Source: Parabacteroides sp. (GTDB lineage Bacteria > Bacteroidota > Bacteroidia > Bacteroidales > Tannerellaceae). Taken from it: 35,490 nucleotides of DNA. A program made the position numbers and the translations under genes. The stretch covers positions 1 to 35,490 of the forward strand of contig JALFJR010000080.1 of assembly GCA_022775005.1 (NCBI GenBank), written 5' to 3'. This document shows positions 7,530-28,395 of the stretch, in pieces. Within the stretch, counting starts at the first letter, position 1. Each line of letters opens with the position of its first letter. The notes beneath the pieces were generated by a model that saw only the letters and a program-made list of their open reading frames with translations, was not told where the DNA came from and searched no databases.

Positions 7530-7884
7530 TCCTCTTTTCGTCGTTAGATAGCAAGGTAGTGATGACCTCATTCAATACTTTTGTCGTAATAATCTCTCGA
7601 TTACGAATGATGAGTCCCATCAGCAGCAGATAGAGTACCGCCACTAATGCGAAGCCCGCACCCGTAAAGCCGATCCACTCTCCCAAGAAAAAGCCTAAAG
7701 CCAAGAAGATGAACAGGATCGCAAAAAAAGCGAGAAACAGAAGTACCAATCCATACGAGAGGACGGCGATCACTTTACCCGTCCGCTCGTATGTATTGAG
7801 TTTGAGGAGCTCCAATTTGAGTTCCACAAAGGCTGATACGTCCTCCCTCAGCTCTTGGATGATCTTATCCGGATCTTTCTCCAT
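7468..7884 (-). CDS. Holin-X-like (phage holin family) membrane protein
   Basis: A 138-residue protein with an amphipathic N-terminal helix (ELREDVSAFVELKLELLKLN), two long hydrophobic segments (about 37-70 and 74-92) and a hydrophilic acidic C-terminal tail. This layout matches the putative Actinobacterial Holin-X / phage holin family found in many non-phage genomes, often beside YtxH-type genes. There is no phage context here, so a lysis role is unlikely; an inner-membrane stress function is an inference. The start is 11 bases after the YtxH-like stop, and its 3' end overlaps the following gene. Confidence 0.75.
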   Translation of the reverse strand: MEKDPDKIIQELREDVSAFVELKLELLKLNTYERTGKVIAVLSYGLVLLFLAFFAILFIFLALGFFLGEWIGFTGAGFALVAVLYLLLMGLIIRNREIITTKVLNEVITTLLSNDEKRNETTNDEPATDADTAGTVAS

Positions 7885-7895
7885 AAATGCGGAGA

Positions 7896-8114
7896 TTATT
7901 CAGCAGCCGCCTCTGTGGCAGTCGCAGCCGCCTCTTTTCCCTCTTTGTACTTCGCCAAAGCAGAGTTGAAACCCTCTTTTACCTTGCCAACTACGCCGTT
8001 CAACTCTTCCAGCAATTGCTCTCTCTTGTCTGTAGCAGCCAAATAACCTACGGCCGCACCCACGGCTGCACCTACTACGAGGCCCAGCAATAACTTAGAA
8101 TCTACGCTTTTCAT
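7896..8114 (-). CDS. YtxH domain-containing protein
   Basis: A 72-residue protein with an N-terminal glycine/alanine-rich membrane segment (LLLGLVVGAAVGAAVGYLAA) followed by a charged helix and an alanine-rich tail (EAAATATEAAAE). This is the typical layout of YtxH-like general-stress proteins. It is the first gene of the three-gene minus-strand unit. No TAnnTTTG element was found in the 97 bases before it (8115-8211), so its promoter is unknown. Confidence 0.75.
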   Translation of the reverse strand: MKSVDSKLLLGLVVGAAVGAAVGYLAATDKREQLLEELNGVVGKVKEGFNSALAKYKEGKEAAATATEAAAE

Positions 8115-8211
8115 GATCGTTCCTGTTTTATAATTAGTAAATTGTATATGGATAACGTTTTTACTTCTTGGATAGTTTATCTGCGACTTCGTTTTTTATC
8201 GTTAAACATTG

Positions 8212-9063
8212 TTACGCCTTCACGACTTTGACCGCCACCCAATTATGGCGCTCCTTGTAACCCTCTACTCGTAAGCCGTTTCGCCGGCACTCCTCCTCGA
8301 TAATCGGGAGATCTTCCAGATAGAAACCACTCATGAAGAGTTGGCCACACGGCTGCAACGCTTCCGCATAATAGTGCATATCCTGCAACAAAATGTTGCG
8401 ATTGATATTGGCGAAAATCACCTCAAACGGGGCGAAAGCCGCAATACGTTCCGCACCGCCCAAGGCCACCTCAATCTCCTCCGTATGGTTGAGCCGGATA
8501 TTCTCCAAGGCATTCTCGTAAGCCCATTCATCGATATCGATAGCCACCACCTTCTTAGCCCCCTTCATACGAGCTAAGATGGCTAACACCGCCGTGCCAC
8601 ACCCCATGTCCAGCAATCGTTTCCCAACCAGCGACTCTTCAAGCATCCAACTGATCATCAGATAGGTTGTTTCGTGATTGCCTGTGCCAAAAGCCATCTT
8701 GGGATCAATAATAATCGTGTAAGCATAGCCCTCTTCTGGCTCATGGAAGGAGGCACGGATCAAGCAGTCGTTGCCGATACGGATCGGTTTGAAGTAATTC
8801 TTCTCCCACTCCTCATTCCAATCCCTGCTCTCCACCGGCGTGCAAACATAGTGAATCGTGGTCTCCTCCAAGGGGAAGGTAGCAAGGGTATCCTTCAAAA
8901 CGGCCTCATCAAACAGCTGATCGGAGATGTAGCCTTGCAGACCTTGCTCATCCTGCGTGAAACTCTCAAAACCAATCTCGCCCAACTCAGCCGCTAAGAC
9001 ATCGTTAAGAATCTCCGTCTCGATGGGAGATTGATAGGTGAAGCGAAGTTCGTAATAGTTCAT
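8212..9063 (-). CDS. prmA: Ribosomal protein L11 methyltransferase
   Basis: PrmA trimethylates lysines and the N-terminus of ribosomal protein L11 using S-adenosylmethionine. The 283-residue product has the N-terminal substrate-recognition domain (about 1-115). It is followed by MAFGTGNHETT, the SAM-binding LLDMGCGTAVLAILA, the acidic loop AIDIDEWA and the catalytic-region motif FANINRN. The frame is open to 9186, but translation from there would add about 41 residues not typical of the family. The ATG pair at 9066/9063 (MMNYYELRF) is the likely start and sits about 100 bases after a good promoter box. It follows the sulfur-relay genes but probably has its own promoter. Confidence 0.95.
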   Translation of the reverse strand: MNYYELRFTYQSPIETEILNDVLAAELGEIGFESFTQDEQGLQGYISDQLFDEAVLKDTLATFPLEETTIHYVCTPVESRDWNEEWEKNYFKPIRIGNDCLIRASFHEPEEGYAYTIIIDPKMAFGTGNHETTYLMISWMLEESLVGKRLLDMGCGTAVLAILARMKGAKKVVAIDIDEWAYENALENIRLNHTEEIEVALGGAERIAAFAPFEVIFANINRNILLQDMHYYAEALQPCGQLFMSGFYLEDLPIIEEECRRNGLRVEGYKERHNWVAVKVVKA

Positions 9064-24958: not shown

Positions 24959-25180
24959 TTACCTAATCCTTTGCACATCCAAATAGACGGTTGAGAGGAT
25001 ACCCGCTTTCTTGGCATCAATGCCATAGATGCGATAAAAAGCATCGGCCACCGCCTGTCCGCCATTCGTAGTCAACGGATTAGACAAGGAGTTGGTTACC
25101 ACCTCCACACTCATTCCTTTCTCTACCCGAATACCATTCGTATTCTTCATCTGCCTTACTGTTACTCTAAAAAGTGCCAT
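24959..25180 (-). CDS. Small DUF6140-like protein
   Basis: A 73-residue soluble protein starting MALFRVTVRQMKNTNGIRVEKGMSVEV. It resembles the DUF6140 family of small Bacteroidales proteins (from memory, moderate certainty): a beta-rich N-terminal half, then NPLTTNGGQAVADAFYRIYGIDAKKAG and a final strand. There are no cysteines, no signal peptide and no membrane segment. It is the last gene of a minus-strand series, 69 bases after the EF-Tu-domain/zinc-ribbon gene, and no promoter-like box lies between them. Function unknown. Confidence 0.65.
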   Translation of the reverse strand: MALFRVTVRQMKNTNGIRVEKGMSVEVVTNSLSNPLTTNGGQAVADAFYRIYGIDAKKAGILSTVYLDVQRIR

Positions 25181-25249
25181 AATATACTGTTTATAAGTTT
25201 TCTAAATCTTTTGCTCTACTATGGTCTAATAGACATTCATGAGAAGAAA

Positions 25250-26071
25250 TCACGAATGACGCATTCTTTGACCACATTTGGGACATCGAAGAATAGCTTC
25301 ATCATCCGTACCCGGTGGAAACACGACTAAATCATGACAGTTAGGACACCGAATATATTCCTTATTACAAAAAGGACACTTTCCCCAACTATCAGAAGAT
25401 GGCACATCATCTATTAAACGCGGAATTAATCTGAATCCTTTCCATGGATGATTATAATTTTCTATTGCTTTTTCTGCCATGCCAGACAGAATTTCCTTCA
25501 ATGAAGAGTGCTCTAATCCAACTATTTCGTCACATTCCTTACAAAATCCAAATAGACCTATTTTAAAATTTTCTCCACAATTATTACAATGATAGGTAAC
25601 AATTTCATCCAAAAGATCCTCTTCTGGAACAACATAAATCTTGCCACAGTGAGGACATCTAATTTTCCCTTCTAATTTTTCTTCTTTCTCTTCTTGTTCC
25701 CAGTCTTCCCAGTCATAACCTGCTGCAATATCCGTAGTTGACAATATCAGCTGATCACCATTATCCTTAAAGGCATAAGCTTTATAGGGAAGTATGTCTT
25801 TTATCTCTTGTGCAGTTACGCCTTTCAAAAGAAGACCGACATTATCCCCTATCTCACCTTGATCCAATAGTTTTTTAAACATCTCAACACCAACGGCATA
25901 CGCTGCTAATGTAACTTGAGGATCTTCAACAGCAGATATCAGGATCATATCTCCAACTACAACTTTTCCTGAATGAATAAGACCTGTTATAACAGCACCA
26001 TGGCCGGTAATATCAAAAACTTCTTCAATTTTCATTGAAAAATCATCGTTTATAGTAAGTGTCTTTCTCAT
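25250..26071 (-). CDS. EF-Tu domain II fused to zinc ribbons (no GTPase domain)
   Basis: The 273-residue protein begins with a beta-barrel closely resembling domain II of EF-Tu. IEEVFDITGHGAVITGLIHSG corresponds to the [20 protein letters not shown] region, and VGVEMFKKLLDQGEIGDNVG to the VEMFRKLLDEG segment (about residues 11-100). The G domain that normally precedes it is absent, as is domain III. After an acidic linker (about 119-135) come six CxxC pairs: Cys139/142, 162/165, 177/180, 232/235, 242/245 and 263/266. These are enough for three zinc sites or about three zinc ribbons. A helical segment at 186-215 separates the first and last ribbons. Binding to RNA, tRNA or another protein is an inference. 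It lies 35 bases after the DUF697-like gene, probably in one operon. The start could also be the ATG at residue 13. Confidence 0.75.
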   Translation of the reverse strand: MRKTLTINDDFSMKIEEVFDITGHGAVITGLIHSGKVVVGDMILISAVEDPQVTLAAYAVGVEMFKKLLDQGEIGDNVGLLLKGVTAQEIKDILPYKAYAFKDNGDQLILSTTDIAAGYDWEDWEQEEKEEKLEGKIRCPHCGKIYVVPEEDLLDEIVTYHCNNCGENFKIGLFGFCKECDEIVGLEHSSLKEILSGMAEKAIENYNHPWKGFRLIPRLIDDVPSSDSWGKCPFCNKEYIRCPNCHDLVVFPPGTDDEAILRCPKCGQRMRHS

Positions 26072-26106
26072 ACTTTTATTTTTAAAGTTCTGTTATTCAA
26101 TGCATA

Positions 26107-26706
26107 TTAGTTCTCGTTCTTATAGTCCTTCTTTGCCTCTTTGATAAACTCCTTTATTTCAGACTTGTTGTTCTTCAAGAAATCATCAACAGAAGCCTTT
26201 AATTGATTTTCATCCACTACACCGCCCTTTCCAACCAGAGCTGTCAATGCTTTCAGATAAACATAGCCAGACGCCAATGTGACAGCATACAAAGCACCGC
26301 TCATAATGGCAGCACCACCAATCGATCCAATTCCCGGAATAAATTTCATGGCACCGCCTACAGCTAACACTGCCGCATAACTCGCCAAATTAGTAGCTAC
26401 GGCAGAAGCAATGGTTTTCAATGCGCTTTCACCTAACTTCATACCCAACTTGCTGTTTATTCGGAGATACATTGTCCAAATATTCGCAGCTCCAGCTGCT
26501 ACATCAGCTCCCGGCACAGGAATCCATGCCGATCCAACCGCTATTTTCGCATGCAATTTGACAACATCGGCAATTTCTTGAGGCAGAGCCTCTTCCTTCC
26601 CTTTATCCATTGCCTCGACCAACTTCACCGCAATGTGTAACAGATGTGCACTCATGATAGATTTGTTCTTTTCATCGCCTCCCCCTGTCCCCTCCGGCAT
26701 CGGCAT
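26107..26706 (-). CDS. DUF697-like membrane-associated protein
   Basis: About 199 residues. A hydrophilic N-terminus is followed by two hydrophobic blocks (about 53-82 with IPVPGADVAAGAANIW, and about 93-155 with FIPGIGSIGGAAIMSGALYAV). A lysine-rich C-terminal helix ends the chain. The repeated pattern of a proline-glycine turn followed by Gly/Ala-rich helices is that of DUF697, a domain usually attached to the C-terminus of Era-like GTPases; here it stands alone. Membrane association is likely. The start is uncertain: ATG at 26706 or 26700, or TTG at 26724. It is the first gene of the three-gene cluster and lies directly beside a 210-bp foldback sequence. Confidence 0.6.
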   Translation of the reverse strand: MPMPEGTGGGDEKNKSIMSAHLLHIAVKLVEAMDKGKEEALPQEIADVVKLHAKIAVGSAWIPVPGADVAAGAANIWTMYLRINSKLGMKLGESALKTIASAVATNLASYAAVLAVGGAMKFIPGIGSIGGAAIMSGALYAVTLASGYVYLKALTALVGKGGVVDENQLKASVDDFLKNNKSEIKEFIKEAKKDYKNEN

Positions 26707-26730
26707 TATCTTTAAGTCTAACAAAAAACA

Positions 26731-26940
26731 AAGCGGGGAACTATCTTCATTATCGACTTGGGGGCTCTGGAATGCCTGCTATGCTATAATGAATAGATAG
26801 CTCCACGCTTGTAAAATGGTATATGAAACCCATCCCTCAGGAAAGGAATATGCACTTAAACAAGCGTAGAGGCTATTCTTCCATTATCTTGCATAGCGAA
26901 ATTTTCCAGATTTCCAAGTCAAGATAATATCTGAACGCTT
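26731..26940. repeat. 210-bp imperfect foldback (inverted repeat)
   Basis: The two halves match in order when one is reversed and complemented: AAGCG, TTATC, GACTTGG, TCTGGAA, GCTATGC, ATAATG, AATAG, CTC.ACGCTTGT, then TATAT near the centre at about 26836. Small loops and bulges separate these blocks. The element ends 25 bases before the DUF697-like start and lies inside the presumed leader. No flanking target duplication is visible. It may be a miniature foldback element or a structured RNA leader. The remaining bases of the gap 26707-27225 hold promoter boxes and operator-like palindromes. Confidence 0.8.
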
Positions 26941-26993: not shown

Positions 26994-27097
26994 ATCGGTC
27001 TGACCGAGAATGCCAAACTTTTCTCCGGTTTGTTTTCATTTTTCTTTGAAATTTGCGATGGATTCTCCTCACCTACTGCTACCTATTTCCCCATTAA

Positions 27098-27178
27098 TCC
27101 CTCAATGAGGGACGAAAACAATCAAAAATATCCCTCAATAAGGGACGTTTTTCAACAAATTAATCCCTCAATGAGGGA
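27098..27178. promoter_or_regulatory. Three 15-bp palindromic operator-like sites, 33-bp period
   Basis: TCCCTCAATGAGGGA occurs at 27098-27112 and 27164-27178, and TCCCTCAATAAGGGA at 27131-27145. The starts are exactly 33 bases apart, about three helical turns, so all sites face the same side of DNA. The last site ends 7 bases before the -7 box of the ATPase gene. Confidence 0.85.
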
Positions 27179-27225: not shown

Positions 27226-28395
27226 ATGATAGACAACAGACTATATGCATACATGTCGGAGCTACTGAAACAAACTCCGATGTCTTTAGTGAGATACAAA
27301 TATGACCAAATCAACTGGGAAGGAAGGCTTGTCGGCATAGTAGGACCAAGAGGTGTCGGCAAATCGACCATGGTGTTACAACGCATTAAGCAAAGCCAAG
27401 GCGGTCACCATCTCTATGTCTCCGCAGACAATATGTATTTCTCAAACCATAATCTGGTGGATTTGGTCGATGACTTCGTGAAAGAGGGAGGCACACATAT
27501 TTACATTGATGAAATCCACAAATATGCCGGCTGGAGCCGAGAATTGAAACAATCTTATGATATGCATCCTAATTTGCACATTGTGTTTACCGGTTCATCG
27601 GTGCTGGACATTAAGCAAGGAGAAATGGATCTCAACCGAAGGACAGTCATCTACGATATGCAAGGACTGTCCTTTCGAGAATACTTGCATCTCTTCCACC
27701 AAATCCAATGCCGTCCATACACGTTAGCAGAGATTCTGCATTGCCAAGTCAGTATCCCTGAGATCGATCACCCTCTACCGCTGTTTCGCGACTATTTGAA
27801 CCGAGGTTATTATCCTTTTGCTCTGGAGAACGATTTTGTACCCAAAATGATTCAGGTCGTGGCACAAACCGTAGAGGTGGATATTCCTCAATATGCTGAC
27901 ATGAAAGCCTCTACAGCACGAAAGCTAAAAAGGATGCTTGCTATCTTAGCCACACTTGCTCCTTTCAAGCCCAGCATGAAGAGCTTAGCGAATGAGATAG
28001 GTGTGAGCAAAAATAACGTACCCGACTATTTGATTTATCTGGAACGAGCCGGCATGATCGGTCTTCTGCGAGATGACACTGGCGGCATCCGCAATTTAGG
28101 CAAAGTGGAAAAGGTGTATATTGACAATCCAAGCCTCATGTCCGCACTCACTTCGGAAGTCAACATCGGCAACTTGCGAGAGACCTTCTTCTACAACCAA
28201 ATGCGTGTAAATCATGATGTCAGAGACTCTAAAGCTTCTGATTTTAGCATAGATGGCTACACGTTCGAAATCGGTGGACGCAAGAAAGGCAAACAACAAA
28301 TCGAAGGCATTCCAAACAGTTTCATCGTCAAAGATGACATTGAAACAGGGCATGGCATTGTCATACCCTTGTGGACGTTTGGTATGAACTATTGA
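27226..28395 (+). CDS. AAA_14/DUF4143 family ATP-binding protein
   Basis: A 389-residue P-loop ATPase with Walker A GPRGVGKST (40-48), Walker B HIYIDEIHKY (91-100) and a sensor-like IVFTGSS near 120. The next part contains a winged-helix-like segment (MKSLANEIGVSKNNVPDYLIYLERAG) and the DUF4143-type C-terminus. There the acidic/lysine pattern (DFSIDGYTFEIGGRKKGK) recalls a PD-(D/E)xK nuclease-like fold. Members of this large family are common in Bacteroidales and their function is unclear; DNA or toxin-antitoxin-like roles have been suggested. It is a single-gene unit with its own operator-like promoter region, and its last seven bases overlap the end of the convergent nucleoside hydrolase gene. 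Confidence 0.85.
   Translation: MIDNRLYAYMSELLKQTPMSLVRYKYDQINWEGRLVGIVGPRGVGKSTMVLQRIKQSQGGHHLYVSADNMYFSNHNLVDLVDDFVKEGGTHIYIDEIHKYAGWSRELKQSYDMHPNLHIVFTGSSVLDIKQGEMDLNRRTVIYDMQGLSFREYLHLFHQIQCRPYTLAEILHCQVSIPEIDHPLPLFRDYLNRGYYPFALENDFVPKMIQVVAQTVEVDIPQYADMKASTARKLKRMLAILATLAPFKPSMKSLANEIGVSKNNVPDYLIYLERAGMIGLLRDDTGGIRNLGKVEKVYIDNPSLMSALTSEVNIGNLRETFFYNQMRVNHDVRDSKASDFSIDGYTFEIGGRKKGKQQIEGIPNSFIVKDDIETGHGIVIPLWTFGMNY

Follow-up and report, generated by a model that had tools for sequence, protein, structure and literature searches.

Plant immune receptors have integrated decoys, and EF-Tu is the target of some antibiotics. Some toxins of rival bacteria likewise act through EF-Tu, according to the part of PMC9086364 available to us, and a place for EF-Tu domains in conflict systems has itself already been published: Kaur et al. 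(2020), in the accessible text of their paper, list them among up to 50 variable modules that lie behind a caspase, and read them as effectors (PMC7159879). The EACC1/caspase two-gene conflict system (System 4) is described in the same text from actinobacteria and, sporadically, proteobacteria (PMC7159879). Beyond one sentence in the available portion of PMC7159879, no paper was found that describes EF-Tu domain II standing alone and combined with zinc ribbons, and nothing on EF-Tu was found in the accessible sections of PMC11237479.

Here we describe a protein encoded at 25250-26071 in a 35,490-nucleotide stretch of Parabacteroides sp. DNA (contig JALFJR010000080.1; “the window” below denotes this whole stretch). 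It resembles EF-Tu in its domain II, but differs from it in having neither a G domain nor domain III, in the loss of several basic positions, in its six CxxC pairs, and in the placement of its gene within a swappable cassette. Unlike the modules of the EACC1/caspase system, it is free-standing and cysteine-rich, belongs to Bacteroidales, and is followed by a DUF6140 gene; no caspase-superfamily (or cyclase) N-terminus was found in this protein (among the best 25 of 27 Pfam rows) or in the neighbouring frame 26107-26724 (1 of 1 row). A relative in another Parabacteroides genome (G033) follows three Dynamin_N proteins matching the PADLOC LeoA/LeoBC models (E down to 8.5e-21), which recalls the LeoABC bacterial dynamins as presented in the available part of PMC4159319. 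The window cassette, however, has no dynamin-like GTPase genes, which among the module-bearing loci were seen only in this relative (locus L017), and of the three such dynamin operons in the genus two have no EF-Tu module. A Streptomyces kinase/EF-Tu domain II/WD40 protein on plasmid NZ_CP108746.1 likewise joins domain II to a non-translational protein; it differs in grouping with EF-Tu in our tree, with weak support, and in keeping 8 of 12 pocket contacts but 16 of 18 other positions. In the literature searched we found neither the free-standing cysteine-rich form, nor the Bacteroidales DUF6140 cassette, nor the preferential retention of the pocket, and to that extent these appear new.

The protein and its parts are as follows.
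25250 to 26071, minus strand: stand-alone EF-Tu domain II/cysteine-rich protein of 273 aa (window, Parabacteroides sp.)
25757 to 26050, minus strand: EF-Tu domain II barrel (PF03144), residues 8-105
25667 to 25753, minus strand: acidic linker, residues 107-135, with a net charge of -8 over 110-135 and pLDDT below 50 for 107-134
25577 to 25657, minus strand: first zinc-ribbon-like pair, C139/C142 and C162/C165; Zn_ribbon_4 just below its cut-off
25367 to 25543, minus strand: CxxC at 177 and CxxC at 232, tentatively one split zinc site by presumed pairing
25274 to 25348, minus strand: third zinc-ribbon-like pair, C242/C245 and C263/C266, with weak zinc-ribbon matches

A sequence-only reading of this stretch had proposed that the N-terminal part is specifically EF-Tu domain II rather than a generic translation-factor barrel, and this was borne out by Pfam and NCBIfam matches, by the predicted structure and by a fold search. 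The same reading held that the G domain and domain III are missing. Consistent with this, PF00009 was not among the best 25 of 27 Pfam families (E up to 1), the NCBIfam EF-Tu models align at model positions 206-290 only, so that the matches stop short of domain III, and the frame is open for 280 aa, about 7 codons upstream of the start, leaving no room for a G domain. The acidic linker and 12 paired cysteines that it had noted are likewise present: inspection of residues 107-273, which include the linker and form the low-confidence part of the predicted structure, gives six CxxC motifs, and Zn_ribbon_4 scores 29.7 bits against a cut-off of 30.3. A truncated tuf gene was ruled out because the frame contains no G domain and because a DFSM signature at the barrel start is common to relatives that also lack one. 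A FourU thermometer hint at 26007-26070 was dismissed (it scored 23.3 bits, where the gathering score is 60).

The relatives without a G domain lie at L017 6721-7539 (G033) and, in two copies, at L016 7773-8159 and 10932-11630 (G023), so that homologues do not always carry one. With the window they make four stand-alone domain II modules in 3 of 38 Parabacteroides genomes, and all four share the DFSM motif. In the genus search every module scored at E 7.1e-46 or better, with EF-Tu near 1e-22. The partners of the barrel vary. The G033 module sits in a 272-aa protein in which the CxxC pairs are N-terminal, followed at the C-terminus by repeats that match TerB weakly (E 0.022) and PADLOC model PDC-S48 (E 6.9e-10). 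In G023, one copy is fused after two CxxC pairs that flank a glycine-rich segment, and the other is preceded by a frameshifted version of this CxxC/glycine-rich N-terminal part; the two copies (L016a and L016b) are 88% alike, with dN 0.056 and dS 0.142.

The module is rare in the genomes sampled. With the threshold set at E 5e-24, hits came from 5 of 393 Bacteroidales genomes: that of the window, and four whose open frames, at 397-402 aa, are as long as EF-Tu; in the class sample 2 of 345 genomes matched, the window and one with a 403-aa open frame. At this strict cut-off no modules were therefore found outside the genus in the order (393 genomes) and class (345 genomes) samples, a result to be read with the fact that G023 and G033 hold modules yet are absent among the order-sample matches, so that these samples leave out members, and that the cut-off would miss diverged modules such as those at L096. 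At 1e-9, 252 of the 296 genomes sampled across the phylum gave a match, mostly through EF-Tu, and among the matches listed the window alone scored above EF-Tu level. No close full-length relatives were found in GTDB contigs (14 stretches fitted the pattern and 0 were confirmed), and when the N-terminal half alone served as query, 3 of 78 stretches in these contigs were confirmed, at two loci, one of them that of G023. The other, L096, comes from a Bacteroidales MAG of yak omasum and encodes two adjacent proteins (7533-8252 and 8273-8899) with tandem, diverged domain-II-like barrels. Each protein reads as two barrels; the first protein scores 39.4 bits over two stretches, which passes the Pfam cut-off, and the second protein 16.3, which is below it. 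Two of the barrels are clear and two weaker. A ResIII/HNH protein adjoins them.

In a tree built on 86 columns the stand-alone modules fall outside EF-Tu, with long branches and weak support, and the joins among modules are not trusted. The Streptomyces kinase-EF-Tu domain II-WD40 fusion (L107 3948-6602) falls among the EF-Tu sequences, also with weak support, and because of this position it is probably a separate, younger capture of domain II.

The module gene in the window lies in a cassette with the following further features.
26107 to 26655, minus strand: membrane-type protein resembling DUF697, 182 aa if read from the ATG that follows the leader
26666 to 26757, minus strand: repeated leader of about 90 nt, which recurs in L017, L110, L117, L119, L120 and L121
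24959 to 25180, minus strand: DUF6140 (PF19637), 73 aa, the last cassette gene, E 3e-40
25183 to 26665, minus strand: 1.48-kb block replaced in sister genome G028, holding the genes for the EF-Tu module and the DUF697-like protein

The DUF697-like frame matches PF05128 at E 1.6e-4 with 21.9 bits, below the cut-off of 27.7, which makes this a resemblance. Its longest ORF begins with a TTG at 26724; since the shared leader covers this beginning, translation probably begins at the ATG at 26655. Copies of the leader precede unrelated cassettes in several Parabacteroides genomes; it may be a regulatory element that the cassettes have in common, or it may mark a boundary for recombination. Between the leader (upstream) and DUF6140 (downstream) lies the replaced block: the flanks of G028 and the window share 88-89% nucleotide identity on both sides of 25183-26665, and in its place G028 carries a 1.68-kb segment whose 549-aa product matches no Pfam family. 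GC content is 35% in the module gene against 39-53% in its surroundings. No GTPase and no recognisable effector was found by Pfam in the window cassette, and PADLOC returned 0 families for the module protein or its DUF697-like neighbour (E 0.01). Also in this region, an AAA_14/DUF4143 ATPase gene at 27226-28395 (PADLOC PDC-S01, E 8.2e-24) is missing almost entirely from the syntenic position in G028, and beside it, at 27093-27178, three copies of a 20-nt repeat containing a palindrome are spaced 33 nt apart.

A comparable exchange is seen at the G033 locus. There, three dynamin-family GTPases and a coiled-coil protein precede the module, and DUF6140 follows 8 nt later. G028 has the same dynamin operon, with 91.6% nucleotide identity over 6.7 kb, and in the corresponding slot carries a Sel1 gene where G033 has the EF-Tu module, with DUF6140 next in both; in G001 the dynamin genes are followed by DUF6140 directly. 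The last dynamin of the operon was found in 3 of 38 genus genomes at 1e-40, and at the same threshold the genome of the window had no match to this 684-aa protein.

DUF6140, on which no paper was found in a literature search by name, occurs in 10 of 38 genus genomes and in 20 of 393 Bacteroidales genomes. It stands directly after the module in all three genomes that have one, although the G023 gene is broken into two frames. Taking as near-family those sites with E 3e-25 or better, and setting aside 6 further rows (diverged copies and fragments), the gene upstream of DUF6140 was an EF-Tu module at three of nine sites, Sel1 at two, a member of the 549/553-aa family at two, a dynamin at one and a 250-aa protein without Pfam match at one, so that at 6 of 9 sites something other than the EF-Tu module precedes it. 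Run against the ORFs of 39 DUF6140 loci, the module profile was found in 4, two of them the same G023 gene. A motif-based script placed the DUF6140 ORF in 26 of the 39 loci, and in 24 of these 26 another ORF on the same strand lies no more than 250 nt upstream; some of these upstream ORFs are short and perhaps spurious. Ten ORFs beside DUF6140 in other Bacteroidales, hand-picked from 24 loci (L140-L163) with longer ones favoured and one (L150) lying downstream, were compared with PADLOC: six matched at E 1e-4 or better (IetA, PDC-S26 twice, LmuA, SspE-like and mad8-like) and four had no match, and Pfam adds PDDEXK_4 and GmrSD_C. By association, DUF6140 is a recurrent small gene that closes variable, often defence-like cargo in Bacteroidales; together with the repeated leader it appears to mark a family of swappable cassettes, and hence offers a handle for finding new systems. 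Loci with very different cargo include the window (24959-25180), L118, L119, L120, L122, L123 and L140-L163. One of them, on contig C59 of the window's own genome (L118 148-6515), is a second DUF6140 site, which follows a gene for an Arf-like GTPase; an IetA-like AAA ATPase is encoded further downstream.

This setting, with its swappable cassette, leader, DUF6140, and a DUF697-like partner or, in a relative, dynamins, is why an accessory of a conflict system is more likely than a translation regulator. Our preferred reading, held tentatively, is that the 25250-26071 protein is an accessory recognition subunit, a bait or sensor of a swappable defence-like cassette, coupled to a membrane-acting partner. 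A copy of EF-Tu domain II would have been separated from the rest of the factor and fused to zinc ribbons; its kept A76 pocket would present the surface of EF-Tu to an invader protein that docks there, or to the aminoacylated tRNA end, and the zinc-ribbon part would link the barrel to the membrane-acting partner and pass the signal on. Each cassette pairs the module with something membrane-linked in appearance, and the candidate partners are accordingly the DUF697-like protein in the window (a weak match), the dynamin GTPases in G033 and the glycine-rich segment in G023. Zinc binding, protein-protein contact, a pocket ligand and a role in defence are all putative here. The protein would then serve as a bait or sensor for whatever uses the pocket rather than as a competitor at the ribosome, and of the three options raised by the sequence-only reading (tRNA, ribosome or an EF-Tu-targeting effector) the last would fit best. 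As a precedent for docking, the available text of PMC9086364 has the CdiA-CT NC101 toxin contacting EF-Tu domain 2.

As contacts we took the 14 domain II positions that hold A76 and the aminoacyl group according to the accessible parts of PMC4236685 and PMC4329189, converting Thermus to E. coli numbering by motif with offsets of 11 and 12. The EF-Tu comparison set comprised 55 distinct domain II sequences from 77 ORFs, mostly Bacteroidota; R262 (95%) and position 283 (85%) drop from the invariant test because EF-Tu varies there, and positions from 288 onwards were left out, since the alignment is unreliable. Of the positions invariant in EF-Tu, 10 of the 12 contacts but 6 of the 18 non-contacts are conserved across all four modules (Fisher p 0.009), in a test with little independence because the modules are few and related. 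The positions kept in all four are E215, F218, V226, T228, G257, E259, F261, N273, G275 and L277; of the remaining contacts, D216 is E in the window protein and I220 is hydrophobic throughout. At a 90% conservation threshold the counts are 10 of 13 against 9 of 28 (p 0.009), while the window protein alone keeps 11 of 12 against 10 of 18 (p 0.04 for invariant positions, p 0.12 at the 90% threshold). R223, which faces the ribosome, is lost in all four, and a basic residue remains at 279 in one of four, at 283 in one and at 230 in two; every module has K or R at 262 and K at 263. The modules carry a net charge of -5 to -8, an acidity that overlaps EF-Tu (median -1, range -7 to 1), since EF-Tu itself reaches -7. 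Judged from these alignments, the pocket for the aminoacyl-tRNA end is largely kept and several basic positions elsewhere have been given up. The mimicry of tRNA or ribosome binding earlier proposed for this protein thus gains on the side of the aminoacyl-A76 pocket (10 of 12 against 6 of 18) and loses where the ribosome and the whole tRNA are concerned, given the loss of R223, the basic residues lost at 279 and 283 in three of four modules and at 230 in two, and the net charge of -5 to -8.

It is also possible, though on balance somewhat unlikely, that the barrel has been reused as a stable protein-protein module in a generic adaptor, in which case its EF-Tu ancestry would be uninformative about any ligand. 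Zinc ribbons and TerB-like repeats are often adaptors, and both surround the barrel in this family. Other fused domain IIs have lost pocket residues, the Streptomyces kinase-WD40 protein keeping 8 of 12 contacts against 16 of 18 others, the opposite pattern to the modules, and three of the L096 barrels only 1-3 of 12 (in order, the four L096 barrels keep 2, 3, 1 and 7 of 12 contacts and 8, 7, 5 and 6 of 18 others). What speaks against a generic adaptor is that, among positions invariant in EF-Tu, those of the pocket have been retained in the four Parabacteroides modules at a higher rate than the rest, although the pocket residues may have been kept for structure. 

A further reading, which we regard as rather unlikely, is an integrated decoy: a domain captured with its pocket intact, other surface residues invariant in EF-Tu having been given up, and carried on zinc ribbons as bait, through which a membrane-acting cassette would detect attackers of EF-Tu, and which could be swapped within the DUF6140 cassette. 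If true, this would give bacteria an equivalent of the integrated decoys of plants, in the form of an EF-Tu domain taken over together with the pocket under attack.

Alternatively, the protein could be the effector itself, binding the aminoacylated CCA end in competition with EF-Tu and slowing translation when the cassette fires. The largely kept A76/aminoacyl pocket and the K or R at 262 and K263 in all four modules would suit this, as would the published reading of variable domains, EF-Tu domains among them, as effectors (Kaur et al., in the available text of PMC7159879). We nevertheless consider it unlikely, given the net charge of -5 to -8, the loss of R223 in all four modules and of the basic residues at 279 and 283 in three of four, and the absence of the G domain, which supplies the rest of the site, His67 included (PMC4329189, in its accessible part).

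It is very improbable that the protein is a functionless relic, either a decaying tuf fragment or a piece of a larger cassette protein. Its rarity (3 of 38 genus genomes), the G023 copy that follows a frameshifted N-terminal part, and the broken DUF6140 beside the other copy are what decay might look like; against it stand the intact ORF, the cysteine pairs, the DFSM motif in all four modules, a place outside EF-Tu in the tree (on long, weakly supported branches) and the dN of 0.056 against a dS of 0.142 between L016a and L016b. Least credible of all is an antibiotic sponge, in which the kept pocket, which overlaps the binding site of drugs such as GE2270, would soak up EF-Tu-binding antibiotics: EF-Tu complexes with GE2270A and thiopeptides do appear in the fold-match lists, as any EF-Tu structure would, but GE2270-type drugs use the EF-Tu G domain too, and the context is of conflict type rather than resistance type.

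A phage origin was rejected, as all 14 of 14 viral-contig matches are EF-Tu or pieces of it, one of them within a chimeric ORF; 15 matches in phage records are, by annotation, EF-Tu or without a named gene; and the 11 BFVD matches at E 0.001 or better are all translation-factor-type GTPases of giant viruses. PHROGs gave the window protein weak matches alone, all outside the barrel. Plasmid searches matched 85, 82 and 27 records, and the three plasmid records examined hold two real EF-Tu genes and the Streptomyces kinase fusion. Among the viral contigs, the frame at L080 2984-4078 (IMGVR_UViG_3300022555_002045) joins a non-EF-Tu N-terminal part to the tail of a G domain and EF-Tu domains II-III, and is probably an assembly chimera.
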